38,603 nucleotides of DNA from a virus. This document shows positions 4,111 through 23,028 of this stretch, piece by piece (the first letter of the stretch is position 1; the number at the start of each line of letters is the position of its first letter). A program made the translations under genes and the position numbers. The notes under the pieces are model-generated. The model did no database searches. It worked only from the letters and a program-made list of their open reading frames with translations, and was not told the origin of the DNA. The stretch covers positions 1 through 38,603 of the IMG/VR virus record IMGVR_UViG_3300043548_000624. One strand, given 5' to 3'.

Positions 4111-5442
4111 TTATTTATTGAGCCACCTCACGGTTGCAGGGGTATCTGTGGCAGTGGCCGATCCGCCTCCAAAGCCAGCTAAATAGCCCGAACGATCGCC
4201 ATAAGGAATTGTTGTTCCGCTTGCTTTGCCTAGCCCAGCGCCATACGCGCTCATTCCAAATCCCATTAAAGACCCGCCGATCTGCGACGAGGCGTTGCTC
4301 ACGAGTTGCGCGTTGGCTACGGCGCTTGCCATGGAGCGGTTGGCGTTGGCGTAGGCATTGGAGAGCCCCTGCCCCGCGATGCCGAGCTTGGCGTTCGTGC
4401 GGGCCTCTGCTGCTGCCGCCTCCATCGCGGCCATGGCGCGGGCTGTCTCGCTCTCTTGCCCATAGACATTGGAGTAAGTCGTGTGGAGGAAGCTCGCTTG
4501 GTTCGTGGCGAGGTCGAACCTCTTGTCCAGTGCGGTGTTGAGCCCGACCATCTTGTAGTCGAGCGGCACTTTCTGGGCCTCAAAGAGCTTCCAACTGTTC
4601 TCGTTATTGACATCAATGACCTTGTTGGTATTGAGCCCCATCCAGTTGTAAACATTTTCGACCCCGACCTGCGTTCCAGCGACGAGCGTGTTGTAATCTT
4701 GAAGCTGGCGGTTTTGGAAATTCTGCTGCCCCTGCTGAATCCCCGCCATGGAGGAAAGCCCCAAGTCACGCATCGACAGGTTGTTTTTAAGTTGGCTCCC
4801 CGCGCCGGTTCCCGCCCCTAGGGCGCGTTGGGCGGCTGCACGCTCGATCTCGGCTTGCACCGAGGCGGGCACGATTCCCTGGGTTAGCTGGAGGTCGTTG
4901 AGCGCCATCTGCGAGCGGGTCTCGTCAAAGAGCGGGGTCGCCGCTCTGGCAAGGTTCAACCGGATTTTCTGGTTCTCCTCGCTCAGTCGGGTCGCGAAAT
5001 TGGTGAAATCGTCGAACCTTCCGAGGTTGTAATCGTAAGTCTGATCCGCCGATTCCTTAATGACATTTCGGGAGCGGGTCTCAAAGTCCGTGACATTTTG
5101 ATCGGCTTTGTCAACGACCCCACTCCATCCGGTGAAGTAATCAGGAAAATTCCCCAGGGCTTCTTTAACTTGCTGCCCGTATTGATCCACGAGCTTTCCC
5201 GTGCGGTCGATGTAAGTGTTTGAAAGCCCCGACTGCGATCCCCCCAGCTTCCCGATCGCCGCCATCATGTCGCCGTAGCCCCGCTCGGCTTCCGCCGAGG
5301 CCAGCTTCATGTATTTCTTGGTGGCCGCGGCGGATGAGGCATTGGCCCTGTTCGTAGCGTCGGCCTGCATGGCTCCTGCGGCGACGGCTCCTCCGGCTGC
5401 GATCACCGCGCCCCCAACGAGTGCTCCTGCGATTAAGCCCAT
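4111..5442 (-). CDS. Internal virion/DNA ejection-like protein, 443 aa
   Basis: The first 25 residues are almost all Gly, Ala, Val and Ile (GLIAGALVGGAVIAAGGAVAAGA), a membrane-inserting N-terminus. Long Ala/Gln/Asn-rich helices follow, with a second Ala-rich segment near residues 330-380 and a Gly-rich C-terminus. Such N-termini are typical of podovirus internal virion proteins and of the P22-type ejection proteins, which enter the cell envelope during DNA delivery. The gene follows the sulfotransferase fusion with 1 base between stop and start and precedes three more putative virion genes. Assignment is by composition and position only. Confidence 0.6.
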   Translation of the reverse strand: MGLIAGALVGGAVIAAGGAVAAGAMQADATNRANASSAAATKKYMKLASAEAERGYGDMMAAIGKLGGSQSGLSNTYIDRTGKLVDQYGQQVKEALGNFPDYFTGWSGVVDKADQNVTDFETRSRNVIKESADQTYDYNLGRFDDFTNFATRLSEENQKIRLNLARAATPLFDETRSQMALNDLQLTQGIVPASVQAEIERAAAQRALGAGTGAGSQLKNNLSMRDLGLSSMAGIQQGQQNFQNRQLQDYNTLVAGTQVGVENVYNWMGLNTNKVIDVNNENSWKLFEAQKVPLDYKMVGLNTALDKRFDLATNQASFLHTTYSNVYGQESETARAMAAMEAAAAEARTNAKLGIAGQGLSNAYANANRSMASAVANAQLVSNASSQIGGSLMGFGMSAYGAGLGKASGTTIPYGDRSGYLAGFGGGSATATDTPATVRWLNK

Positions 5443-5443
5443 G

Positions 5444-6535
5444 TTAGATTTCTCCTCTCATAAAAATTTTAACCCACTCCAAAAGACGACCTTGAATGAA
5501 CAAAAAAGCGGCGCAACGAGGCGGGATTCCGAGTGCCAAAGCGGCGGCTGCGGTGTAGGTCGAAGGGTTTGGCATCACAGGCTTTCCAGTTGAGCGGAGA
5601 AAATCGGTGACGGCTTGAATTTTTGCATACAAATCTGGGCGATTCTCTTGGAGCCATTGATCGACTTCAGCCCAGCACGGGTCGGGCTCTCCGCGATGAA
5701 ACGAGTTGCCCCAGCCAGGAACTTTGTAACCGTCGGCAACGAGTAGCCGAGCCCCTTCGACGGGGTTACTAGCCATCAGCACCTCGCAGGATTGCTCTAA
5801 AGGAGCGTGGGTTCCGCCCAGAGTTAGCAGCCCTGCCGCAATGCTATTGGTCAAGGTGCCGTTGCCCGCCGCGCATTGCAAAACCGTGGTCGTAGAAATG
5901 TTCTGCCGGAGGGCGCTTTTAGCGTGCGCCTCTAACACCAGTGCCAATAACTGCGTTTCTTTTTCTGTAAGCGGGGCCACGCGACCAGGGAGTTCCATAC
6001 CGCCTCTCAAAGCACCTCGAATGAACTGCGGCTCCATTTGCACATTCAGAGTCCGCAACAAATCAAACTGGTCCGTAGGAAATTCCATGTAGCCCCCGAG
6101 ACAATGGTTCCAAATTTTCTTTGCCGTCTCGGCAGAAGACAGTGAGTGGAAATTTACGACAAGCGCCTGCGGCTCCAAGCCTTCCAAAATCTTTTGGTTG
6201 ATTTCCAAAAAAGACCGTAGTTTTTCTAGCTTTTCTCCGGCAACTTTTTGGTAGGAAGATAAAACTTCCTCCATAGGGCGCTTGATGACGACTAGCTTTA
6301 GCTCAGGCAAAAGCCTCAATAACTCTGCTACGATTGGCGACGCGGCGCTGTCGGAGTTCCCTACGAACCGAGCCCCCCTCGACATCTCTGCGGCCATGGC
6401 GGCGGCATTCAGCCCACGACCGCTAAGTTCATGGTGGCAAATGGAATCCCCCCGCGTAAGGAAATTTGCAAGCCACGCCGTGCGGGACCTAGGCTGTCCT
6501 AGAATTAGAAATTGGCGTTCGGATCGGGTTTCCAT
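5444..6535 (-). CDS. Sulfotransferase domain fused to a degenerate citrate-synthase-like domain, 363 aa
   Basis: Residues about 8-190 look like a PAPS-dependent sulfotransferase. The loop FLILGQPRSRTAWLANFL matches the 5'-phosphosulfate-binding loop, and VVIKRPMEEVLSSYQ matches the 3'-phosphate-binding R..P...S element. From about residue 190 the sequence changes to the C-terminal part of the citrate synthase/citryl-CoA lyase family: ISTTTV, then a GGTHAP loop with the first catalytic His, VPGWGNSFHRG, a PNPSTYTAA segment and FLFIQGRLLEW. The second catalytic His (family GFGH) is Asn here, and the catalytic Asp (family PNVDFY) is Ser, so citrate synthase chemistry is unlikely. A promoter-like motif lies just upstream, and the gene heads the virion protein operon. 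A role in sulfating a virion or cell-surface glycan is a guess. Confidence 0.75.
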   Translation of the reverse strand: METRSERQFLILGQPRSRTAWLANFLTRGDSICHHELSGRGLNAAAMAAEMSRGARFVGNSDSAASPIVAELLRLLPELKLVVIKRPMEEVLSSYQKVAGEKLEKLRSFLEINQKILEGLEPQALVVNFHSLSSAETAKKIWNHCLGGYMEFPTDQFDLLRTLNVQMEPQFIRGALRGGMELPGRVAPLTEKETQLLALVLEAHAKSALRQNISTTTVLQCAAGNGTLTNSIAAGLLTLGGTHAPLEQSCEVLMASNPVEGARLLVADGYKVPGWGNSFHRGEPDPCWAEVDQWLQENRPDLYAKIQAVTDFLRSTGKPVMPNPSTYTAAAALALGIPPRCAAFLFIQGRLLEWVKIFMRGEI

Positions 6536-6551
6536 TTAATAACCTTTGCTG

Positions 6552-6580
6552 TTATTACACCATGCCCTAGCGCAAGGCAA
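6552..6580 (-). promoter_or_regulatory. Promoter of the sulfotransferase-ejection operon
   Basis: On the minus strand, TTGCCT (6575-6580) is followed after 17 bases by TAATAA (6552-6557) with GTG just before it, then CAGCAAAGG. ATG 6535 follows 16 bases after the -10, a predicted leader of about 9 bases. Confidence 0.6.
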
Positions 6581-8195
6581 GGACAGGTTTGTTGTGAACC
6601 CCATAAAGTTGTGGCTTGAAGTATTGCTGGTAAACCTGCGCGGCGAGGAGTTGCTTCGCCGCTTCAAAGTTCCCTTGCTGCCCGTTGGTCAGAATCGCCA
6701 TCGCCGCTTGGGCGATCGCCTCGTAGTTGTTCAGATACATGGGCTCCGAATCGCTCGTGTGCGGCACGAAACGGCGTTTGGCGAGGTAGCGGATCACGGT
6801 CGCCTTGTCCTCCTGTGGCACAGTCACAAAGTATTTTCGTTTCGTCTTGCCATCCACGGAGTCCACCGAGTCGCCAAGGTCGGAGAAGCCACTGCGCCCA
6901 GGGTTCTCCGTCGTGCGGATGCCGGTGCCGCCGGTCATGTATTCGGCGAACCGATCGTGGACGGGGCGCGGGTCGCCGTCGAAGGAGACGAACAGCACAG
7001 TCTCGATTTCCCTGGGGAGAAAAACCTCGCCGGAGTTCGAGAGGGTCAAGGTGTATTCGGCAATCGTGCCGACCCACTTGCCAGAGTTCATCAGGGATTC
7101 CTCGGCGCTCGTCACCGCCCGCTTGATCGCGTTGTTGGAAAAGGTGAGCGAGTTCTCGAAGCCCAGCCCCACGCGGCCCCAGTGGTAGCCGAAGCTGTTC
7201 GGCGAGGTGAGCGAGAGATCGTAGCGTGTGGTGCGGCGGAGCGTCTGGTCGTGCGCCTCCACATCGCGCTGGATCAGGTCGAGCGCGGTTTTCTTCAACC
7301 CTAGGGCGACCTCTGCGGCTCCCTCCATCGCGGCCAGATAACTCTCCACGAGCGCCCGCTTGATTTCAAAAGTGATCGGCGGCGCGGCGAAGTCGTCGTC
7401 ATCCGGCTTTTGCAGGAATTTCTGATGGGCGATCGCATCATTCACAGCCTGGTTCAGCAGGGTCGTCATGCGCGAAGTCGGCACCTTCAACCCTGTGGCA
7501 AGCTCGTTGTGCAGCCGCCCCACCTCGCCCGTGGTGGCTTTGCGGAGTTGGTGAACCGCCGCGATCGTGTCGCGTTCGAGCAGATCGAGCGCGTCTTTTT
7601 TAAGCGCCATCGCAGGCTCGACTGCCGCTTGGGAAGTGGCGAGGTAGGATTCGACGAGTTTTTTCCTCACCTCGAAAGAGGCTGTCAAAGTCGGCCCCTC
7701 AAATTCCTCGCGTCTTTGGAGGAACTCCAAATGAGCCGTTGCCTCCGTCGCCGCCTGCCCGAGCAAAGTCGTCAACCGCGAAGTCGAGAATTTCAACCCC
7801 TCGGGAAGCTCGTTGTGCAGCCGCCCCACTTCGCCTGTGACGACGCGGCGGGCGCGTTGCACCTCGGCCATGAGATTGCGCTCCACAAAAGCCAGAGCCT
7901 TTTGCTCCAGCCCTGTCGCAATTTCCAGTTCGTTGTTCTCCTCGCGCCATAGGGCGAGGATCATCACCTTGGTCGCGTCGAGATCATCAAGGGTGAGGTA
8001 TCCACTGGTTCCATTTTCTACATAGACCAACGGGTCCTTCTCCAACTCCTCGCGGCGGGAGAGAAAGTTGTAGTGGTCGATCAACCGGCGCTGGGCCTCA
8101 TTGATCCTTGCCGTGACGCGGGCATTCTCTGGGTCAATCCCGTTGTCCACATACGGCGCGAGCGCCGCTTTGGCGGCTTGAAAGCTAGTAGCCAT
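6567..8195 (-). CDS. Tail tubular protein A-like (T7 gp11-like) adaptor with triplicated segment
   Basis: I choose the ATG at 8195 (MATSFQAAKAALAPYVDNG) because GGAGGG lies 9 bases upstream; an in-frame ATG 22 codons earlier lies inside the preceding gene. The length is about 542 aa. Opening helices with INEAQRRLI are typical of podovirus head-tail adaptor or tail tube A proteins. The first 310 residues contain three related units of about 100 residues, each with an ALxL(E/K)(Q/K)xAL..(V/L)(E/Q)R helix; the first two also carry TGEVGRLHNEL. The C-terminal half (AKRRFVPHTSDSEPMYLNNY) is the conserved part and ends in FKPQLYGVHNKPVLALR. It lies directly downstream of tail tube B. The family assignment is from remembered similarity and gene order. 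Confidence 0.7.
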   Translation of the reverse strand: MATSFQAAKAALAPYVDNGIDPENARVTARINEAQRRLIDHYNFLSRREELEKDPLVYVENGTSGYLTLDDLDATKVMILALWREENNELEIATGLEQKALAFVERNLMAEVQRARRVVTGEVGRLHNELPEGLKFSTSRLTTLLGQAATEATAHLEFLQRREEFEGPTLTASFEVRKKLVESYLATSQAAVEPAMALKKDALDLLERDTIAAVHQLRKATTGEVGRLHNELATGLKVPTSRMTTLLNQAVNDAIAHQKFLQKPDDDDFAAPPITFEIKRALVESYLAAMEGAAEVALGLKKTALDLIQRDVEAHDQTLRRTTRYDLSLTSPNSFGYHWGRVGLGFENSLTFSNNAIKRAVTSAEESLMNSGKWVGTIAEYTLTLSNSGEVFLPREIETVLFVSFDGDPRPVHDRFAEYMTGGTGIRTTENPGRSGFSDLGDSVDSVDGKTKRKYFVTVPQEDKATVIRYLAKRRFVPHTSDSEPMYLNNYEAIAQAAMAILTNGQQGNFEAAKQLLAAQVYQQYFKPQLYGVHNKPVLALR

Positions 8196-8778
8196 AAGCA
8201 AAAACCCTCCAGCCTTGAGTAGTTCCTTCGTAGCGCAGCAGTATTTCCCCTGTGGTGTCACAAACGAGGTTCTCCGCCAGCCCGTTGATGAGGCTGTTGT
8301 TTCGAGCTACCGTTAAATTGTTGGTGCCCCATTTTTGCGCGATGTCGGAGATCAGCACCCAATCCAACGCGGCAGGGCTGGCGGGGAGCGTGATCGTGAA
8401 AGCCCCCGCTGTCGTATCCGCCGCAATCCGGTCGCACGCGATAGCCGTGTAGTTGGCGGTTTTTTTCGCCCAAGCGTTCACGCGAACCGAAGGCGCGAGC
8501 TTCGCGGATGTCACAGCGTTGTCGGCGATGCCTAGCGGGGCAGTGAAATTTTCAAAAGTGATTCCCTCCACCACCGGAACTCCGCCCGCATAAGAAACAA
8601 TGGGGACGATCTTTCCCGAAGGATCGGTCGCCGCCGACCGTTGCCGGAAGATCAGCTTGTCGAGGTTCTCCCCTTTGACTTTTCGCGTTCCGTTTGCCGA
8701 AGTCGCCCAGACCACGAACTGATCGTTCGTTGCGAGGGTTGTGACTTCCGAGAGTCCGTTGATTGTCGAGTTTGCCAT
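8185..8778 (-). CDS. Tail fibre-like protein, 197 aa, with C-terminal domain shared with the long collagen fibre
   Basis: The N-terminus (MANSTINGLSEVTTLATND) is a fibre-type opening. From about residue 110 to the end it carries a beta-rich domain (YTAIACDRIAADTTAGAF, TITLPASPAA, LTVARNNSLINGLAENLVC, LLRYEGTTQGWRVF) nearly repeated at the C-terminus of the fibre at 25832-27526. That domain likely forms a trimeric fibre tip or attachment module. The gene sits between tail tube B and tail tube A and overlaps both: ATG/TAG overlap by 1 base upstream and 11 bases with the next start. It is probably a short tail-associated fibre or a nozzle decoration. Confidence 0.6.
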   Translation of the reverse strand: MANSTINGLSEVTTLATNDQFVVWATSANGTRKVKGENLDKLIFRQRSAATDPSGKIVPIVSYAGGVPVVEGITFENFTAPLGIADNAVTSAKLAPSVRVNAWAKKTANYTAIACDRIAADTTAGAFTITLPASPAALDWVLISDIAQKWGTNNLTVARNNSLINGLAENLVCDTTGEILLRYEGTTQGWRVFAYGY

Positions 8779-11336: not shown

Positions 11337-12668
11337 TCAAGGAGCCGGAGGGCAGACATGGTCGCCGTCGCAGTCGGTGAGATCGTTCGCACGATCCACG
11401 CAACGGAGGTGGCGGACCACAAAGCCCAACTCGGGGCGCTCGACTTTCGAGCCGTAGGCGTAGAGCGCACGGAAGAAGCCGGTGTTGCCGTCGATGTTGC
11501 TCTCGCGGTCAGGGATGTTCCTCCACACGAACTCGCCAGCCCAGCTATAAGCAGGGTTGTAGGTCATGCCGCCCTTGCTGGTGCGGGGCGAAGGAGTGAG
11601 GACTTTCATCACATCCTGGTGGTAGATCACGGTGTCGGTGTAAGGAGCGGCCTTGTAGGCGGCGCTGATCTCCCAACGCATACCACGCGAAGTCGCGATG
11701 GGCTCGTAGGGGAACACGCGGACCCAGTCACCAGCCACAGCGTCGAAGGTGTAGCGAGGAGGCAACTCAACCGTGAAAAACTTGAAGCCACGGTAGATGG
11801 CGTTCAGCCCTGGGGCCGAAAGCATCGGGTTGCTGTCACCGTTGCCCATGTAGGCATAGCGGAAGTCGTCGCGGACATTGGCGTCTTGGCGCTTGAGGTC
11901 CGAGAAGGTGTAACGCTCGCCGACAGCGGCATAGATCGGAGTCATCTCGTCCACGCGGGCGAACGGGTTGATCGACCCGCCGTTGTAGCCGAGTTGCTCG
12001 TAGATCGCTTCGAGGATGCCCCAGGTGAGCTTCGAGGTCGCCGGAGTGGCCGCGAAGTCGGTCGTGGTGGGGTCGAAGTTGGCAACCGCCACGGATTTTT
12101 GTCCGCAGGCGTTGACATACTCGTCCTGGTAGGTGTTGGTCCAGACATACTTGGTGTTCTCGGAAAGGACACGGATCACATTCTTGACCTGGTCCTCGAC
12201 CTGCCAAGCGAATTGGAGGTCATCGAGGTTGATGTCGGGGCTGTTGAGAGCCGCCTTTTTGAGCGACATGGTGCGAACGGTCACGCCGAAGCTGTCGATC
12301 TTTTGACCGACGATGTGGCTTCCGCCGCCGAGCATACCGCTGCGGGAGAGAGAACCGCCATTGGCTCCAACGAGGTTGGAGTTGTTCGGGGAAGCGGTGT
12401 AAGTGCCGCTCTTGGTGGCGTTGTCGCCATCGCCGCCCGAGGAGGTCCAGTTCTCAAAAATCACGCCACCTGGAGTCGAGACCGCGGCGCTGGAAAGCGA
12501 ACGCTCGAAAATAGGATAGCTGACTTGGTTGCCCTGACCATCCACCCACTTATCTTTAGGAAGATATTTGAGGTAGAAGTCGGAGGTTACGATGTTCTTC
12601 GCGACATTGTTGCGGATCAAACCGCCCCACTCCACGAAAAGTTGTTCGATGTTTTGTAGTGCTGCCAT
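11337..12668 (-). CDS. Major capsid protein, 443 aa
   Basis: It lies directly after the scaffold gene in transcription order and has its own promoter-like region and a downstream hairpin, as expected for the most expressed virion gene. The sequence is balanced alpha/beta: MAALQNIEQLFVEWGGLIRN, a Gly/Ser/Asn-rich loop near residues 65-110 (NWTSSGGDGDN) that fits an E-loop region, and beta-rich segments such as LGFVVRHLRCVDRAND near the end. The last 20 residues carry three Cys (CVD, DCDGDHVC) ending in PPAP, which could allow cross-linking. No Shine-Dalgarno lies before ATG 12668; the leader is T-rich. The call rests on position and general character rather than a diagnostic motif. Confidence 0.75.
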   Translation of the reverse strand: MAALQNIEQLFVEWGGLIRNNVAKNIVTSDFYLKYLPKDKWVDGQGNQVSYPIFERSLSSAAVSTPGGVIFENWTSSGGDGDNATKSGTYTASPNNSNLVGANGGSLSRSGMLGGGSHIVGQKIDSFGVTVRTMSLKKAALNSPDINLDDLQFAWQVEDQVKNVIRVLSENTKYVWTNTYQDEYVNACGQKSVAVANFDPTTTDFAATPATSKLTWGILEAIYEQLGYNGGSINPFARVDEMTPIYAAVGERYTFSDLKRQDANVRDDFRYAYMGNGDSNPMLSAPGLNAIYRGFKFFTVELPPRYTFDAVAGDWVRVFPYEPIATSRGMRWEISAAYKAAPYTDTVIYHQDVMKVLTPSPRTSKGGMTYNPAYSWAGEFVWRNIPDRESNIDGNTGFFRALYAYGSKVERPELGFVVRHLRCVDRANDLTDCDGDHVCPPAP

Positions 12669-12699
12669 AGGATTAGAAAAAACAAAAAGTTGAGGTTGT

Positions 12700-12713
12700 G
12701 AGGTTGTTACACC
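12700..12713 (-). promoter_or_regulatory. Capsid promoter/operator motif (GTGTAACAACC variant)
   Basis: On the minus strand this reads GGTGTAACAACCT and continues CACAACCTC, matching the TAATAACC-n-CAyAACCy family found before other blocks. It ends 32 bases before the capsid ATG. GAGGT/ACCTC dyad symmetry surrounds it. I do not see a good -35 hexamer at 16-17 bases. Confidence 0.45.
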
Positions 12714-12847
12714 TCGTTCGTTTTTTCCGTGCGGGGATCGGAATTACACGCAAGTAATGTCCATGCAGTTACCGCCTGCAAGCAGCGTCAGGAATGTAAT
12801 AACCCTGCAATCCCGCAAAGTCAACAGACAATTTTCAAGAGGTTGCG

Positions 12848-12885
12848 AAAAAGAAAAACCCCACAGAGACTAAGTCCCTGTGGGG
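12848..12885 (-). terminator. Rho-independent terminator of the head operon
   Basis: The stem CCCCACAGAGAC (12859-12870) pairs with GTCCCTGTGGGG (12874-12885) with one mismatch and a 3-base loop. On the minus strand it is followed by a T-rich run TTTTTCTTTTTC (12858 downwards). It lies 19 bases past the stop of the scaffold gene, so it separates the scaffold transcript from the independently promoted capsid gene. Confidence 0.85.
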
Positions 12886-12904
12886 TCATGGGGAGGGGAA
12901 GCTC

Positions 12905-14152
12905 TTAGCGCAGATTGGCTTTAAGCGCCGACATGAAGTCGTCAAACTCCTCCTTGGCTGGGGCCGCTGGGGCGCTGCCGCCTCCGCCCGCCTTGGGGGT
13001 CGCTTTCTGGTATTTCTCCAGGGACTTCTCAAGTTCCTGATACCGATTGTAGAGCGAGACGAATTGGCCGTAGATGATCGGGGCCACCGCGGAGCGATAA
13101 GCCACACGGGCGCGGGAATCCTCGTTCAGCCCCTCGAAGTCGAGTTCGCGCACGAATTTCTCGGCTCCGGCGAGTTGGCCGTTCCACTCGTCGTCGCCGT
13201 CGATCGGGCGCAGGAGCGGCACAGCCTGTCGGCCTTCCTCGATGACCTTGTCCACCACGCCGTTGTATCGCTTGCCGTATTCCTCTTTTTGAAGTTTGGA
13301 CTGCTCCTCACGGTGTTGCTCGATTTTTTCCAGCGCCAGCTTGGCGTTGTTGACCACTTTCTGACGGGTGCTCTGCACCTTGGCGAAGCGGGTCTCCAAG
13401 TCGTAGAGGGCGAATTTGTCGCGGTCGTTCATTCCGGCGGCGATGTCGCTGAGTTTGTCAGCGCGGGCGCTGGCATCGGACTCAGCGAAGGCGTTCACGA
13501 TGTCGGCTTCCACAATCTCGTATTTCGAGGCGATCTGGCTGATCGACTCGCGGATCGCCTGCATGGGGGCGACCACGGCGTCCTTGAACTCCTTGGTGGC
13601 CTCGACGCGGGCGACTTGGAGTTCGCGCTCATACTCCTCGTTCTGCGAGCGCAGGCGTTGCACCTCCTCGGGGTCGGTCTCGGATTTGGATTTCTCCAAC
13701 TCGGCGAGGCGGGCCTCCAGCGCGGCGGCTTTTTCCCGCTCGGCCTTCAGGTCTTTTCGCATGGCGGCAAAAGCGTTCTTCGCGCTCTCACTGGCATTCT
13801 CCAAGCCCCGATCTTCCGAAGGCTCGTGGGTCTCCTCTTTTTTCTTCGCGGGGGCTTTTTTCCCGCGCAGCTTGGCGAGGTCGTCGGAGGTGGGGACTTT
13901 GATCTCCTTCTCCTCGGATTCGGGCTTGCCTGCCTCACCCTCGGGCCCTTTGTCCCCAGAGTGGTTTGTGGGCCCTGTGGGCTCGGTTTCGATCGGCGCG
14001 TCGGGGGCGGCGTCGCCGTCTTTGAGCTTGGCGAAGGCGTCCGCGATACTCGCGGCGGCGTCGAAGCTCATCATTCCTCCCTTGCCTTGGGGTTCCCCCT
14101 CGGGCGCGGGTGTTGTCTGTGTGGTTTCGGTGGTGTCTGACATAAAGTTCAA
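12905..14152 (-). CDS. Scaffolding protein, 415 aa
   Basis: It is highly charged, low in aromatic residues, and located immediately before the capsid gene. Residues 1-110 are Pro/Glu/Lys-rich and disordered (TPAPEGEPQGKGG). Residues 120-190 form a strong coiled coil (KAEREKAAALEARLAELEKS). Helices continue to about residue 290, and the tail contains a Gly/Ala/Pro linker (GGGGSAPAAPAKEEF) before a short C-terminal helix (FDDFMSALKANLR), as in scaffolds that bind capsid through their C-terminus. ATG 14152 overlaps the stop of the previous gene by 4 bases; a second ATG follows at codon 4. The terminator lies just downstream. Confidence 0.8.
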   Translation of the reverse strand: MNFMSDTTETTQTTPAPEGEPQGKGGMMSFDAAASIADAFAKLKDGDAAPDAPIETEPTGPTNHSGDKGPEGEAGKPESEEKEIKVPTSDDLAKLRGKKAPAKKKEETHEPSEDRGLENASESAKNAFAAMRKDLKAEREKAAALEARLAELEKSKSETDPEEVQRLRSQNEEYERELQVARVEATKEFKDAVVAPMQAIRESISQIASKYEIVEADIVNAFAESDASARADKLSDIAAGMNDRDKFALYDLETRFAKVQSTRQKVVNNAKLALEKIEQHREEQSKLQKEEYGKRYNGVVDKVIEEGRQAVPLLRPIDGDDEWNGQLAGAEKFVRELDFEGLNEDSRARVAYRSAVAPIIYGQFVSLYNRYQELEKSLEKYQKATPKAGGGGSAPAAPAKEEFDDFMSALKANLR

Positions 14153-14436
14153 TCCTCGGGTTCGAGGCTGGGCATGAGGTCGCTATCGCTCTTGCGCGGC
14201 TTGATCGGCACGCCGAGGGCGAGGAGCGCGTCGATCGCTTGGTTGAAGCCCTCGAAGCGCGTGTTCTGGTGCGAGTTCCATTCGGAGAAGCCCACGCCGG
14301 TCGGCGGAGCGATCTCCCTGGGGCACCCCAACTGGCGCAGCGCCTCGATGGCGGCTTTCATCTCGGGGCGTTTCAGTAGGTCGGCGAAGGCGCTCGTAAG
14401 CACCTCGCTGGATCGGAAGGTTTCAATCGTGGTCAT
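14149..14436 (-). CDS. Small protein, 95 aa, unknown, head operon
   Basis: It starts MTTIETFRSSEVLTSAFADL and contains a helical first half (LLKRPEMKAAIEALRQLG) and a segment SEWNSHQNTRFEGFNQAIDA resembling small phage proteins of unknown function near capsid genes. It overlaps both neighbours by 4 bases (ATGA type), so translation is coupled with scaffold. No motif points to a function. Confidence 0.6.
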   Translation of the reverse strand: MTTIETFRSSEVLTSAFADLLKRPEMKAAIEALRQLGCPREIAPPTGVGFSEWNSHQNTRFEGFNQAIDALLALGVPIKPRKSDSDLMPSLEPED

Positions 14437-14915
14437 GGTGAGTCGTAGGCGTCGATGTTCACGGAGGCGTCACCCGTGAAGGTCATCACATAAATAAACG
14501 CGACATTGTCGCCGTTGCTGTCGGCCACAGGGGACGCGGTGATGGCGGTGCTGGGGAGCGTGGTGATGGCGGCGGCTTGGTCGGGGGCGAGATACACGCC
14601 CACCGCGTAGGAGGCGGTGCTGCTGGCCGTGTCGTCGATCAAGACCTCGTGCGTGTAGGTGCCTGGGTCTTCGATCGTTTTCACATAGGCCGCATCGGCG
14701 CGGGCGATCACCACCCTGGGGAGGATTCCCACAGAGGACACCTCGCGGGTCGCCGTGGTGGTGAAGCCGATCGTCACGGTCTTTGCCATCGGGTCTTCCC
14801 GCTCCACCCACTCCAGCTTGCCATTGCGGGCCGCGAGCAGGAAAAACCCTTCGGCCTGCGGCTTCGGGATCACCGTGAAATTCTGCGTGAAGGGATTGAA
14901 AAGAAATCGGCCCAT
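14433..14915 (-). CDS. Putative virion protein with RFLFNP N-terminus shared with the long tail fibre, 160 aa
   Basis: Residues 2-13 (GRFLFNPFTQNF) match the start of the fibre at 25832-27526 (RFLFNPITSQF), suggesting a common attachment peptide. Residues 42-160 are beta-rich (AKTVTIGFTTTATREVSSVG, TASYAVGVYLAPDQAAAI) and low in Lys, as in a small decoration or Ig-like domain. It lies in the head operon between a zinc-ribbon protein and a small unknown, with 4-base overlap downstream. A head fibre or decoration role is inferred. Confidence 0.5.
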   Translation of the reverse strand: MGRFLFNPFTQNFTVIPKPQAEGFFLLAARNGKLEWVEREDPMAKTVTIGFTTTATREVSSVGILPRVVIARADAAYVKTIEDPGTYTHEVLIDDTASSTASYAVGVYLAPDQAAAITTLPSTAITASPVADSNGDNVAFIYVMTFTGDASVNIDAYDSP

Positions 14916-15152
14916 CTACCATTTCCCTTTCGGGCATTTGGAGGTTTCGAGAACGAGCTTGGCCTTGGTCGAGCAGCCGCAGACCGTGCATTTGCCGGAG
15001 CCACCCCATGCCTTCGAGTTCCAAAATGGACACGCTTGGCACTGCTCGAACCGGTTCGTGATGACCTCGCCCGAGGCGAGCTTGAAGCCTTTCTTGGCCC
15101 ACTTCGCGGTGTCGGTAAGCAAACTTTTCGCCATGTCGAAGGCGCTCGGCAT
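14916..15152 (-). CDS. Zinc-ribbon protein, 78 aa
   Basis: The first 35 residues are a helical basic segment (MAKSLLTDTAKWAKKGFKLA). A cysteine cluster follows: CQAC, then CTVCGC about 13 residues later, and a final KCPKGKW. Four to six Cys could bind one zinc ion. Small proteins of this type occur beside portal or capsid genes in environmental phages, with no established function. It abuts both neighbours without a gap. Confidence 0.65.
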   Translation of the reverse strand: MPSAFDMAKSLLTDTAKWAKKGFKLASGEVITNRFEQCQACPFWNSKAWGGSGKCTVCGCSTKAKLVLETSKCPKGKW

Positions 15153-15371
15153 TTATTTCAAGGAGCGATTGATTTTCGCCCGCAGGGCTTGCAGGTTGCC
15201 AGGGTTGTTGTTGAGCGGGTTGCCGTCCTTGTGGTGGACATCCATCCCGTCGCCTTTCTTCACGCGGCCCTCGCGGGCCAGCTTCCGGCGGGCGGCGTTG
15301 CGATTCGCCCGTTTCTTTTTCTGATCGGGGCGGGCGTGGTAGTTGTCGTATTCGGCGCGGTAGTCTCTCAT
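15153..15371 (-). CDS. Small HNH endonuclease-like protein, 72 aa
   Basis: The sequence MDVHHKDGNPLNNNPGNLQ is the core of the HNH nuclease fold: two adjacent His (one metal-activating), an Asn-rich loop and NL. A very basic N-terminus (DQKKKRANRNAARRKLAREG) could bind DNA. At 72 aa it is a minimal domain. HNH proteins next to portal and terminase genes often help DNA packaging. It overlaps the portal stop by 4 bases (ATGA). The second catalytic His is not obvious (alternatives are Asn), so activity is uncertain. Confidence 0.7.
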   Translation of the reverse strand: MRDYRAEYDNYHARPDQKKKRANRNAARRKLAREGRVKKGDGMDVHHKDGNPLNNNPGNLQALRAKINRSLK

Positions 15372-17698
15372 GGTTGTGGAGTGGCGGGAGTCGTCATCGA
15401 GCGAATCTTCGCGGCGGCTTTGGCGTCTTCCAAAGCGAGCTTCTGGGCGGTCTGCGCGTCCTTCATTTGCAGGTCAGCTTGGTGCTTCTCGATTTTCATT
15501 TGCAGTTCGGCGCGGCGCTCCAGAAGCCGTTGCTGGGCCTCAGGGCTCAACTGCTCGGACTCGGCGAGCTTCTTCTGCATCGCCTGATACTCGGCCATGA
15601 GGGCGGTCTGTTGGCGCTCGGCTTCGGCTTGTTGGGCTTTCTGCTGGTTCTCCTGCATCGCCTGCAACTCGTCAGCGAGGCGTTGGGCGCTGGCGCTGAG
15701 TTGCTGGTGGCGCTGGCGCATGAGGGCGACCTGGTCTTTGCGAACGAGGTCGCTGCCCAACTGGGACAAATGCTCGCCCAAATGCGGCAAGAACATTTTG
15801 AAGGCGCTCAATGCTTCCATCGGGTTGCTTGCTCCCTCGGCCACGGCGCGGTCGAGTTGGTCCATCGCGTTGAGGTGGGTGGAGGCGTGGATGAAATGAT
15901 TTTCCCCAGGGCTCACGGGGATCGGGCTTCCCGTGGACATCGTTGCGTTCTCCAAGACCGCGATCTTGAAATCCAATGGCGGGCGGAGCGTCGTCTGCGG
16001 GGAAGGAATGTAGCGGTCCACCACTTCCTGTCCGAAACGAGCCGCCACGCGGTCGCGGAGCAGGTTGATGCGGCCCATTTCATCGAGCGAGCCGAAGATC
16101 GACATGGTCTCGTCAATCGCCGCCATTCGCATCGCGGGGCTTCCGTAGCCGATCGCCCGCACTGGCTCGACATTGATGACGCGGTGAATCGCTTCTTCAG
16201 GCACGCCGCGTTTAAGAAGGCGTTTGCGGAACTCTACCGCTTCCTTGCCGCCTGGCTCGCGGGCGTTGTAATCGCGGCGTGTGAGGCGGCGGAAGACCTC
16301 GGTGAGAAGCCGCTTCCACGGGTGGTAGAAAAGGTTGATCGAGGCGTTGGACAGCACGGCCTCTTTCTGCAACTGCGCCTTCACCTCGTAGGCGGTGCGG
16401 GCTTGATTGCTGTCGCCCGTGTTGGCACGGGTCTGGTAGGCCCCCGTGTTGTTGCTCATCTGCATCGCCATGTCGTTAATCACGGGGATGATGTTCTGCT
16501 GAAGGTTCGGGACGGCTTTGTCCACGATCTTCAAGCCAGGCGGGAACAGGGCGTAAGGGCCGTAGTAGGTGAGTGTCAGGTCATCGAGAGCGCGAGTGCT
16601 GCTGTCGCTCGGCTGCACGATGAGCGAGGAGGAGAGCAGCGCCCCATCCACCATGCCGCAACGCAGGCGGTTGAGCACTTGAATGTGCGGGTAGATTTTG
16701 AAGCCCAGCCCGCGGATGCCGTGGTAGGTGCCGTTGCCGACGCCGTAGGTGAATGTCACCCAGCATTGCGTCGGCGTGTCGAAGCGTTTTTCTTTTCGGT
16801 AAAGGAAGCTCTCCTTGATCGCGCCGACATCGGTGGGAAGCGGCTCTTGCAGGAAAATCAAATGCGACACACAGCCGCAAAATTCCTTCACCCACATATG
16901 AACGACTTTAACGACCTTGCTCTTGGCAGTGCCGTAAAGGATGTCGTTGTTTTTTAGCTCTACCTCCAATTTCTCCCAGTCCCCCAGGGAGGTTGTGGTG
17001 TCTTGAGCGCAAGCCCGCTTCAGGGCTTCTTTGACCGTGGCGACATCCCACCCCAGGGAGGCGGCGATCTCAGGGTCGCGGATAAATCCGTAAAGCTCGT
17101 CGGCGCGGTATTCGCGGTCCACTGTGGCGACCTCGATCTCGGCCTCGCTCGCCCGCGTGCCTCGGGGGATGCGAAATTCATTGAGCCCCGTTACGCGCCA
17201 GCGCCAATCCAGTTCGTCCTCGAAATACGAGACACCGACGCCGTGGCTCACGAAATAATCCGAGAGCCGCTGGTGGTTAAATTCAAACTCGCTCCATCCG
17301 CGAAGGGTGCGGTGGAACTCCTCGCCGATGATTTCGCTCCACTCGGCGGCTTGCTCGGGGCTTCCGTAAGTGGTGCGAACGCGGGCGAGCATATCGACCG
17401 AGTTCGTCAGATCGTAGTAGCCTGCGAGGGCTTGATCCTTGAGCGCGGCGGCTTCGCCGAAATCCAGATTCGTGCGCTCGCCTTGCCCGACCTCTTTCAG
17501 ATCGTTGGCGTTGAAGGGCGGCGCTCCGTTGAACATCCCGTCGATCAAAGCGCGGTTGCGGCTGCTGCCTTCGTCGGCTTTTTTCAGCGAGAGGTAAATC
17601 GAGCGGGCGGCGTCCACATCGCCCACGCGGGCGCAAGGGACTTCGCCGGTCACGGGGTCGAGCCCCTTCAGTTCAAGCGGAGAGTGGTTCAGATTCAT
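15368..17698 (-). CDS. Portal protein (podovirus head-tail connector type), about 776 aa
   Basis: I choose ATG 17698 (MNLNHSPLELKGL); an earlier in-frame ATG gives a low-complexity Ser/Pro/Arg extension inside the preceding gene. The length and layout fit large podovirus portals: an N-terminal helical domain (AARSIYLSLKKADEGSSRNR), a mixed clip/stem region, FNHQRLSDYFVSHGVGVSYF, a wing with MSNNTGAYQTRAN, and a C-terminal Gln/Ala/Glu coiled coil of about 120 residues (QKAQQAEAERQQTALMAEY) as the crown or barrel. It lies upstream of scaffold and capsid. It overlaps the end of the glycosyltransferase-like gene by 26 bases. Confidence 0.8.
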   Translation of the reverse strand: MNLNHSPLELKGLDPVTGEVPCARVGDVDAARSIYLSLKKADEGSSRNRALIDGMFNGAPPFNANDLKEVGQGERTNLDFGEAAALKDQALAGYYDLTNSVDMLARVRTTYGSPEQAAEWSEIIGEEFHRTLRGWSEFEFNHQRLSDYFVSHGVGVSYFEDELDWRWRVTGLNEFRIPRGTRASEAEIEVATVDREYRADELYGFIRDPEIAASLGWDVATVKEALKRACAQDTTTSLGDWEKLEVELKNNDILYGTAKSKVVKVVHMWVKEFCGCVSHLIFLQEPLPTDVGAIKESFLYRKEKRFDTPTQCWVTFTYGVGNGTYHGIRGLGFKIYPHIQVLNRLRCGMVDGALLSSSLIVQPSDSSTRALDDLTLTYYGPYALFPPGLKIVDKAVPNLQQNIIPVINDMAMQMSNNTGAYQTRANTGDSNQARTAYEVKAQLQKEAVLSNASINLFYHPWKRLLTEVFRRLTRRDYNAREPGGKEAVEFRKRLLKRGVPEEAIHRVINVEPVRAIGYGSPAMRMAAIDETMSIFGSLDEMGRINLLRDRVAARFGQEVVDRYIPSPQTTLRPPLDFKIAVLENATMSTGSPIPVSPGENHFIHASTHLNAMDQLDRAVAEGASNPMEALSAFKMFLPHLGEHLSQLGSDLVRKDQVALMRQRHQQLSASAQRLADELQAMQENQQKAQQAEAERQQTALMAEYQAMQKKLAESEQLSPEAQQRLLERRAELQMKIEKHQADLQMKDAQTAQKLALEDAKAAAKIRSMTTPATPQP

Positions 17699-18440
17699 CG
17701 GATTTTTTCTTGGCCGGTTTGGGCTTGGGGTTGAGGACTTCGAGCACAGACCCATCGGAGACTCCGGCGACGACTGCCGTGTGCGGGGCAATCGGCTCGG
17801 CGTTCACCCCAGGGGCTTCTTTGAAAAAATACTTCCCATCAGGACCACCCCGATAATTCGAGGTGCCCGCTTGGTTTTGGATGAGCTTGGAAGTCGCGGC
17901 TTCCTTGCGAATCTCGAACCGCATCGTCACATTCCACGGCGTCTCCTTCGGACCGTAGCCCAAGCGGCGGATCAGCGTGCTCCGCAGGTAAAGATCGGGC
18001 GGGTAGATCGACGAAGCGATCAGGCGCGGCGGCTCCTCATAGGGCTTCCCCGTGGCAGGGTTGCGCTCCACGCTACGCTCGGTGGCTCCGAGGTAGGGCA
18101 TCTTCGCGGCGAAATACTCCTTTGCGATCTCCGTCAGCCATGAAGGGCGCAGCGGGCAGCAGGTCTCGTCGAACCAATACCACGGATCGGTGCAGCCCAC
18201 GAGGTCGAGGTAGTGCGCCGTGTCGTGAAAGAGTTTGTTCCGCGAGGTGTAAACATGGTCGCCTGTGAAAACATCCGCGTTGGCAAAAGCTCCCTTCAAA
18301 ATGTTGAGCGCCTTCTCGATCTCGGCGACATCGCGGTTCCCGCCGACCAGCAAAACATCGTGCATCGCCACGCCCCCTAGGGAAAAAAGGTGCTGATACA
18401 GAGGCAGAGACTTTTCGGCAAACGGGATGACAAGCAGCAT
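17673..18440 (-). CDS. Putative GT-A type glycosyltransferase, 255 aa
   Basis: The start MLLVIPFAEKSLPLYQHLFS is a typical beta-alpha opening. DVLLVGGNRD and a central WYWFDETCCPLRPSWLTEIA segment follow. The latter resembles the acidic metal/UDP-sugar site (usually W.W.E.D..P....WL) of phage glycosyltransferase-like proteins, with D and E present. The last 30 residues are a Lys/Pro/Ser-rich tail. It heads the head operon directly after a promoter-like element, with no Shine-Dalgarno. It may glycosylate a capsid or host surface component. Fold assignment is by pattern only; an alternative is a nucleotide-sugar-binding protein without activity. Confidence 0.45.
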   Translation of the reverse strand: MLLVIPFAEKSLPLYQHLFSLGGVAMHDVLLVGGNRDVAEIEKALNILKGAFANADVFTGDHVYTSRNKLFHDTAHYLDLVGCTDPWYWFDETCCPLRPSWLTEIAKEYFAAKMPYLGATERSVERNPATGKPYEEPPRLIASSIYPPDLYLRSTLIRRLGYGPKETPWNVTMRFEIRKEAATSKLIQNQAGTSNYRGGPDGKYFFKEAPGVNAEPIAPHTAVVAGVSDGSVLEVLNPKPKPAKKKSDESEPLSA

Positions 18441-21684: not shown

Positions 21685-23028
21685 TTAAACTATTGCTACG
21701 GTCCAGCCTTTTGCGGTCGCGATTGAGGTGTCGTGAGTTGCGATGCCGTGGTTCCCAGCTACGCCAATCGTTTTGCCCGTTCCATTTGATGAGAGGTTGG
21801 CGTAAATCGTATTCAGCGCCGCGCCACTCAAATTGCAGTTAGTCACATTAAATGTCGCATTCATGCCGGTTAAAGTCATCTTGGAAAGCGAGTTGCATCC
21901 TGCAAGAAACGGAGTGCCGAGGGAGGTTGCGGCAGAAATGTTGCACCCCAGCAATTCACGAAGGCTGGGACAGTTGTTAAAAGCCGTGGTAGCATTGGTG
22001 CAGAGATTCAAGTTCCAGTTTGTTAAATTTATTGATTGCAATAAAATACAACCTTGAAACATATTGTTGATCGTGGTGACCTTGGCAGTGTTCCAGTTTG
22101 AAACATCAACTCGCGGTAGGGCGCATCCGTTGAAAACATAAGCGAGCGAGGTTACATTTTGTGTGTCCCAATTCGAGCAATCCAGCTCTTGCAGACTATT
22201 CGCACCAAAAAACATATTCACCATCACGGTTGCAGTCTGGGTGATGAATTGAGGGGGCATTTTTATGGCGGTGATTGCGATAGCGTCACGGAACATATCC
22301 CCAAAGTTCGTGACATTTGCCGTGTTCCAGTTTGAAGCATCAAGGGTCGTTAAAGCCCAACATGAAAAAAACGCCCCATTAAGACTTGTGATATTAGTCG
22401 TGTTCCATTCATGCTCGTTTAGGGAACGAAGCCGAACGCATAGCCTAAAAGCTCCGTTCAATGAGGTTATCGCGCCCCAAGATGTGATGTTGACTCTTTC
22501 CAAGAAACCATGCCTAATTGCACTGCTTCCGAGGACTAGATTAAGTCCAGCCACAAGATTCGGCAGGTTGATATTCATGTCCAACCATCCACTTGAGTAG
22601 GTTTGCAAACCTGCTGGGGAAGTAGCCTTCACGCCGAGGTCAAATCTGGAAAAAGTTTTCCCGGCTTGAGGATAGATGCGAACTAAGCATTGCTTGTAAC
22701 CGAACTTGGTTACGGTTGCAGAATCCAAAGCCGCATTAGAATAGTCATAGACATGAGTGCGAAGCGAATTGGATGTTGCGGTTTCTATTTGCCCATCGCC
22801 CCAATCAATAAAATAAGTCGAGGCATCGGTCGTATTCATCCGAACCGTGCAAAAATTTTCCGTATTGTCGAAAACAGCGTGGAGGGCGCGAACCTCGTTC
22901 GCGGCGGCAGACGGGAGGGCCAACCATTCAGCAGGGCGGGTGTATGAATCCGACGAGCGGTATGTTTTAGGCGCTTCGTTTGAAAACAAAGGAGTCGTTC
23001 CAAGATACGCTTTAATAAATTCAGGCAT
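21685..23028 (-). CDS. Tail fibre/receptor-binding protein with BspA-type leucine-rich repeats, 447 aa
   Basis: From about residue 190 to 390 there are eight or nine repeats of the BspA/DUF285 type: N-x-x-x-V/I-T-x-(M/L)-x-x-(M/V/A)-F-x-x-(C/A)-x-x-L-x-x-L-(D/N)-x-S/T-N-W-N/D-T, e.g. LDASNWNTANVTNFGDMF and LDCSNWDTQNVTSLAYVF. Such repeats are common in host-associated bacterial surface adhesins. The N-terminus (MPEFIKAYLGTTPLFSN) is a short fibre anchor, and residues 65-120 contain a beta segment with FIDWGDGQIET like a PKD fold. The C-terminus (IGVAGNHGIATHDTSIATAK) closes the domain. It is probably the host-binding tip. Confidence 0.7.
   Translation of the reverse strand: MPEFIKAYLGTTPLFSNEAPKTYRSSDSYTRPAEWLALPSAAANEVRALHAVFDNTENFCTVRMNTTDASTYFIDWGDGQIETATSNSLRTHVYDYSNAALDSATVTKFGYKQCLVRIYPQAGKTFSRFDLGVKATSPAGLQTYSSGWLDMNINLPNLVAGLNLVLGSSAIRHGFLERVNITSWGAITSLNGAFRLCVRLRSLNEHEWNTTNITSLNGAFFSCWALTTLDASNWNTANVTNFGDMFRDAIAITAIKMPPQFITQTATVMVNMFFGANSLQELDCSNWDTQNVTSLAYVFNGCALPRVDVSNWNTAKVTTINNMFQGCILLQSINLTNWNLNLCTNATTAFNNCPSLRELLGCNISAATSLGTPFLAGCNSLSKMTLTGMNATFNVTNCNLSGAALNTIYANLSSNGTGKTIGVAGNHGIATHDTSIATAKGWTVAIV

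Follow-up and report, generated by a model that had tools for sequence, protein, structure and literature searches.

In phage T7, the genes are ordered 12-13-14-15-16, and gp13, which belongs to the Pfam family PF11090 ('probable scaffold protein'), is encoded directly before the first ejection gene. A GNAT encoded beside the internal virion protein genes of Cobavirus (pc40) was considered a possible gp13 counterpart, and a role in morphogenesis was suggested for it (PMC6775973), while a stand-alone GNAT occupies the gp13 position in Vibrio phage 1.015.O. GNAT-like proteins at this position are thus already known, and so are sulfotransferase-like phage genes, although the roles of phage sulfotransferases have been called unclear (PMC10580990). 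As for citrate synthase, gltA was reported as an abundant viral metabolic gene in the viromes of Lake Baikal (PMC8066274). In the full-text literature searched, no paper combined the terms phage, sulfotransferase, citrate synthase and 'auxiliary metabolic gene', and the phrase 'phage-encoded sulfotransferase' did not occur.

The viral DNA analysed here, a stretch of 38,603 nucleotides hereafter called the window, carries a gene in which a sulfotransferase-like (ST) domain is fused to a citrate-synthase-like (CS-like) domain:

5444..6535, minus strand: ST-CS fusion gene (363 aa, ATG at 6535)
5972..6535, minus strand: sulfotransferase-like P-loop domain (residues 1-188; phrog_10855, Sulfotransfer_3, AF2/Foldseek)
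5447..5971, minus strand: citrate-synthase-like domain (residues 189-363; PF00285, AF2, PDB matches)

The fusion is genuine and not a sequencing error, because a full-length orthologue with 60% identity is intact in the same slot, and within the same gene order, of another phage (L014/L018). The identical fusion gene is also present in two further contigs, which both depart from the window sequence past position 4242, and two genes joined by error, a concern raised in the preliminary description, are ruled out by the orthologue and these independent contigs. Between the two fusions, dN/dS was 0.13 for the ST part and 0.15 for the CS part, values that are rough because dS is near saturation, and separately encoded ST/CS pairs gave 0.02-0.09; a dN/dS of at most 0.15 shows both domains to be under purifying selection. 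A tblastn search with the fusion protein against annotated phages and plasmids returned no relatives.

Each domain was modelled separately with AF2 from an alignment of its viral relatives, because the full-length mixed alignment A6 misplaced the ST rows. The ST domain alone reached a pLDDT of 91.2, and its Foldseek search of the PDB retrieved tyrosylprotein sulfotransferases (E=7.5e-5, TMq 0.5-0.6), which account for 11 of the 12 matches at E<=1e-3. At the profile level, phrog_10855 matches residues 8-172 (3.4e-8), and Sulfotransfer_3 matches residues 49-109 (3.4e-5), slightly under a cut-off that other members of the N-domain family pass (L148, 7.7e-8; L121, 2.8e-6). Both PAPS-binding elements attributed to this half in the preliminary description are present as described, in a sulfotransferase fold with a PRSxT-type P-loop:

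6473..6499, minus strand: 5'-PAPS-type P-loop GQPRSRTAW (residues 13-21)
6428..6439, minus strand: C-H-H-E motif (residues 33-36; H35 invariant in alignments A3 and A7)
6251..6283, minus strand: 3'-phosphate-type element KRPMEEVLSSY (residues 85-95)

Among 34 diverse family members, R16, R18, T19 and W21 of the P-loop are invariant, and the C-H-H-E motif is a candidate general-base site. The window protein shares the Arg...Ser of the 3'-phosphate element with most members, but the element is degraded in L048, L038 and L066; as this second PAPS element is degenerate in some members, ST activity may not be general. From its predicted fold and its motifs, the ST-like domain would be expected to bind PAPS.

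The C-terminal half is matched by Citrate_synt (PF00285) at residues 189-355 (E=1.8e-7, 30.9 bits, curated cut-off 27), and the same family matches 11 of 11 members of alignment A2. Modelled alone, the CS-like domain reached a pLDDT of 94.7, and its PDB matches include citryl-CoA lyase 6hxp (E=1.9e-6) and 3tqg (TMq 0.81), with TMq ranging from 0.77 to 0.81; the best 50 of 124 matches at E<=1e-3 comprise citrate synthase and citryl-CoA lyase only. Separate profile and structure searches of the two halves, as proposed earlier, therefore recovered a sulfotransferase and a citrate synthase fold, and the C-terminal half, already described as citrate-synthase-like, does resemble that enzyme in predicted structure. 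As judged by profile and model, the domain belongs to the citrate synthase superfamily (PF00285 fold), with the following active-site positions:

5807..5818, minus strand: GGTH, first catalytic His kept (H243; residues 240-243; His in 27/27 representatives)
5705..5716, minus strand: GWGN, second catalytic His replaced (N277; residues 274-277)
5552..5572, minus strand: PNPSTYT, catalytic Asp replaced (S325; PNPSTY is residues 322-327)
5486..5488, minus strand: R350, aligned with the conserved citrate-synthase Arg (27/27; 3tqg alignment)

When the domain is aligned to 3tqg, GGTH lines up with the first catalytic His, GWGN with GFGH and PNPSTY with PNLDFY, and the C-terminal Arg is aligned, which bears out the substitutions read earlier from the window protein. 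Among 27 CS representatives (viral relatives less than 70% identical), H243, the PN pair, R350 and W354 are invariant, and K/R281, four residues past N277, is kept in 24. Column 325 holds Asp in none of the 27, and column 277 holds N or S in 26, with His in L038 only; GWGH also occurs in the later-found member L148. The CS-like family lacks the His-His-Asp triad of citrate synthase and retains the first His alone. In the numbering of pig citrate synthase, the retained residues would correspond to His274, Arg401 and the CoA-contacting Arg324, and the missing ones to His320 and Asp375; the oxaloacetate-binding Arg329 also appears to be lost. This pattern therefore suggests that CoA-site features stay while the condensation chemistry goes, and the PG[FW]G loop together with one basic residue (K/R281) points to possible CoA binding.

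The fusion gene occupies a T7 gp13-type slot, directly upstream of the first ejection-type gene, and the proposed link to the ejection genes holds in this respect:

4111..5442, minus strand: first ejection-type gene (MGLIAGALVGG..., 443 aa; starts 1 nt past the fusion stop)
6567..8204, minus strand: upstream virion-type gene 'up1' with internal repeats (conserved in L005, L006, L008, L009 and L014)

The ribosome-binding-like GAGGAG of the first ejection-type gene sits within the end of the fusion gene. The ejection identity of this next gene rests on its N-terminus, on gene order and on a sub-threshold match in L121, where the gene at the homologous position matches P22_gp7 (PF25688, ejection protein; E=3.2e-5, below cut-off). 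Downstream of the ST unit, the next gene in most cases starts with MG, MP or MA and continues into a stretch rich in Ala and Gly. An Ala+Gly share of 43% or more over the first 30 residues was seen in 46 of the 69 non-redundant ST loci whose next gene could be tested, compared with 5% of 1362 background ORFs, a signal slightly favoured by start-codon choice. The earlier view that the fusion gene starts the operon has to be given up, because it begins 31 nt after the stop of the upstream gene, within a co-directional block, and no promoter-like site was found before it.

In the close relatives L005 and L006, the slot holds an unrelated short-tail-fibre-like gene, and identity to the window breaks 8 nt into the coding sequence. 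The slot is therefore exchangeable, and the fusion gene dispensable or replaceable. The slot gene of these sister phages matches phrog_12032 'short tail fiber protein' and for this reason is not counted as an enzyme; a cupin-like reading of it was dropped.

Several other features were observed around this region. The repeats of the upstream gene (GEVGRLHNELP...) vary in module number from one close relative to another (window 6570-8204; L006 10788-13401; L008 10761-13630). L008 carries the first ejection-type gene twice (14335-15429 and 16001-17047), the two copies being separated by a 139-aa ORF, and L009 does likewise. Within the window, positions 11340-18440, the expected portal/capsid/terminase region, hold long minus-strand ORFs with neither a PHROG nor a significant Pfam match, which suggests a very divergent head module, and positions 21688-23028 encode a BspA-type leucine-rich-repeat/DUF285 protein (2.2e-26) among tail-fibre-type genes.

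An alignment-led scan of viral contigs identified 177 stretches encoding CS-like relatives, mostly single-domain proteins of 175-220 aa. Two pattern scans of 84,980 prokaryote genomes found no member, a result limited to the patterns used. PHROGs contains no family for CS-like proteins, the viral structure library BFVD gave no match to the CS-like model at E<=0.001, and tblastn with two stand-alone CS-like proteins against phages returned no relatives.

In 17 of the 27 CS representatives, an ST of the same family adjoins the CS-like gene, often overlapping it by a few bases, or is fused to it; an 18th (L088) is accompanied by a P-loop gene of another kind, whose GLMRSGTS motif is sulfotransferase-like, as well as by a gene with a weak GNAT match. 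Counted over non-redundant ST clusters, CS comes first in nine, ST comes first in eight and the two are fused in two. The fused pair forms one clade of the CS tree (100/99), both gene orders are intermixed in it, and the unpaired genes require two changes. The ST-CS fusion is thus found in the window lineage only, and elsewhere the two are separate overlapping genes in either order. CS-like genes lacking an ST (L028-L036, L053-L060, L064, L105 and L108) belong to phages that have a T7-type RNA polymerase and lie in their early/DNA region, near thymidylate-synthase-like and SSB-like genes (named by reading their sequences), and no ST partner was found elsewhere in the T7-RNAP-type contigs tested, which may be fragments. 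Since two groups sit in the early region without an ST, CS-like proteins are able to function in the absence of this partner and away from the slot.

The ST family scan, for which alignment A4 was used because A3 was too diverse for scanning, yielded 191 stretches, of which 80 were kept. The ST is fused to a C-terminal GNAT-like domain in 13 clusters, and such fusions were seen in the same slot in L121, L124, L128, L137, L140, L144, L146, L152, L156, L158, L162 and L196. The GNAT part of L124 matches the acetyltransferase family phrog_1249 (1.8e-4), which is also matched by the stand-alone GNAT of Vibrio phage 1.015.O. An Asp/Asn-hydroxylase-like gene follows the ST in 12-13 clusters; most of those tested match Asp_Arg_Hydrox (PF05118, down to 2.1e-12), L189 weakly, and an HxD...H pattern is visible in their sequences. 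This arrangement, too, is found directly ahead of the first ejection-type gene. A recognised partner is absent in 33 of 77 ST clusters. The share of CS among ST partners is not to be read as a frequency, because it is inflated by CS-led sampling.

The reading we favour, with chances that we judge about even, is that the gene is the joined version of a late accessory module of short-tailed phages, elsewhere made of two proteins, which modifies the ejection proteins or helps to assemble them. The ST and CS-like proteins would act together in virion assembly, on the ejection proteins encoded by the next genes; gene order does not by itself prove this target. The ST-like domain may bind PAPS or PAP and would probably sulfate or otherwise modify a protein. 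The CS-like domain, keeping part of the CoA pocket and the oligomeric core, could serve as a CoA-nucleotide-binding, dimerising partner, and the earlier suggestion that a CoA-ester fold was kept as a binding or oligomerisation module is compatible with these findings without being proven by them. In such a module, the CS-like part would fill the role of the GNAT-like domain in the sister ST-GNAT fusions, and the whole may catalyse or, as suggested for T7 gp13, only scaffold. Given that the solved folds closest to the ST model are those of protein sulfotransferases, and that the ST can instead be partnered by a GNAT-like domain or a 2-oxoglutarate-type hydroxylase, it is attractive, though still unproven, to suppose that injected proteins are modified. 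In its most specific form, which we consider rather unlikely, a partner-swapping cassette at the T7 gp13 position, consisting of ST with a CS-like protein, a GNAT or an Asp/Asn hydroxylase, would modify ejection proteins, possibly by tyrosine sulfation, and the CS-like protein would be a virus-only CoA/PAP-binding regulator derived from a disabled citrate synthase.

Pure scaffolding is a strong rival, tentative as it is in our estimation. Both folds would then have been exapted to scaffold or chaperone the assembly of ejection proteins, forming a non-enzymatic morphogenesis factor without cofactor chemistry, as the family-wide loss of CS catalytic residues, the occupation of one slot by unrelated folds and the naming of gp13 as a probable scaffold would all lead one to expect. 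The P-loop residues and H35, however, are invariant in the 34 diverse ST members, as expected of retained ligand binding, and the hydroxylase-like neighbours show the HxD...H pattern. A weaker alternative, and a distinctly doubtful one, is that the module sulfates a host envelope glycan, a target already suggested in the preliminary description, or another receptor, thereby blocking superinfection or adjusting the host. Many cellular sulfotransferases act on glycans, and the ST-family gene of a Stenotrophomonas phage lies elsewhere, adjoining an endolysin gene; against this, the ST is tightly coupled to the ejection gene across divergent phages, and the solved structures closest to its predicted fold act on protein (tyrosine) and not on glycans. 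An accidental fusion of unrelated genes without joint function, random cargo in effect, could be imagined from the near-identical relatives that lack the fusion gene, the swap beginning 8 nt past the start codon, but it is made highly improbable by the fused orthologue at 60% identity, the recurrence of adjacency in both orders and the low dN/dS (0.13-0.15) of both halves. Finally, an auxiliary metabolic gene, either a working citrate synthase or a sulfur-metabolism enzyme feeding the host TCA cycle, would agree with the PF00285 matches and with the viral gltA genes reported as such (PMC8066274), but the TCA-cycle role is essentially excluded and a working citrate synthase ruled out by the residues lost (Asp base absent in 27/27, second His in 26/27), and the protein covers no more than the C-terminal portion of the fold, has no counterpart in the pattern scans of prokaryote genomes and sits in a structural-gene slot.

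The libraries and literature searched contained no trace of the virus-only CS-like family, of its repeated association with ST or of the exchange of partners at the ejection slot. A pair that recurs, fused or neighbouring, by the ejection genes of very different short-tailed phages suggests that the ejection machinery is assembled or modified in a step so far unrecognised, and a partner system of this kind bears on the role of phage sulfotransferases and of the gp13 position, raising the question of whether injected proteins are chemically modified. As well, some viral 'gltA/citrate synthase' metabolic genes may belong to the altered CS-like family and not be TCA-cycle enzymes.

Among known systems, phrog_10855 (annotated 'hydrolase', and 'similar to sulfotransferase' in Pseudomonas phage phiH1) is matched by the ST domain, but no fusion to a CS-like domain is known there, and in the one isolate checked, a Stenotrophomonas phage, the gene is next to the endolysin and outside the ejection slot. 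The nearest solved fold is that of TPST1/2, which share a PRSxT-type P-loop with the ST domain, whereas the ST domain is much shorter, has no significant sequence match to them and, from its motif, would be expected to have His at the base position where TPST1/2 have Glu. With citryl-CoA lyase, citrate synthase and 2-methylcitrate synthase (PF00285), the CS-like proteins have in common the fold, the first His, the PG[FW]G loop and the C-terminal Arg. Unlike these enzymes, they are without the N-terminal half of citrate synthase and the catalytic Asp, the second His is mostly Asn or Ser, and the patterns used in the scans recovered no family member outside viruses. As to T7 gp13, PF11090 had no match in the window protein by Pfam search, and gp13 did not match the GNAT part of the ST-GNAT fusions by single-sequence hhalign. 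T7 gp13, the GNAT proteins at its position and the fusion are all small accessory proteins in the slot between the tail genes and the first ejection gene, and in the sister fusions a GNAT-like domain is joined to the same ST family; unlike T7 gp13 and the GNAT proteins, the slot of the window holds an ST and a CS fold together.
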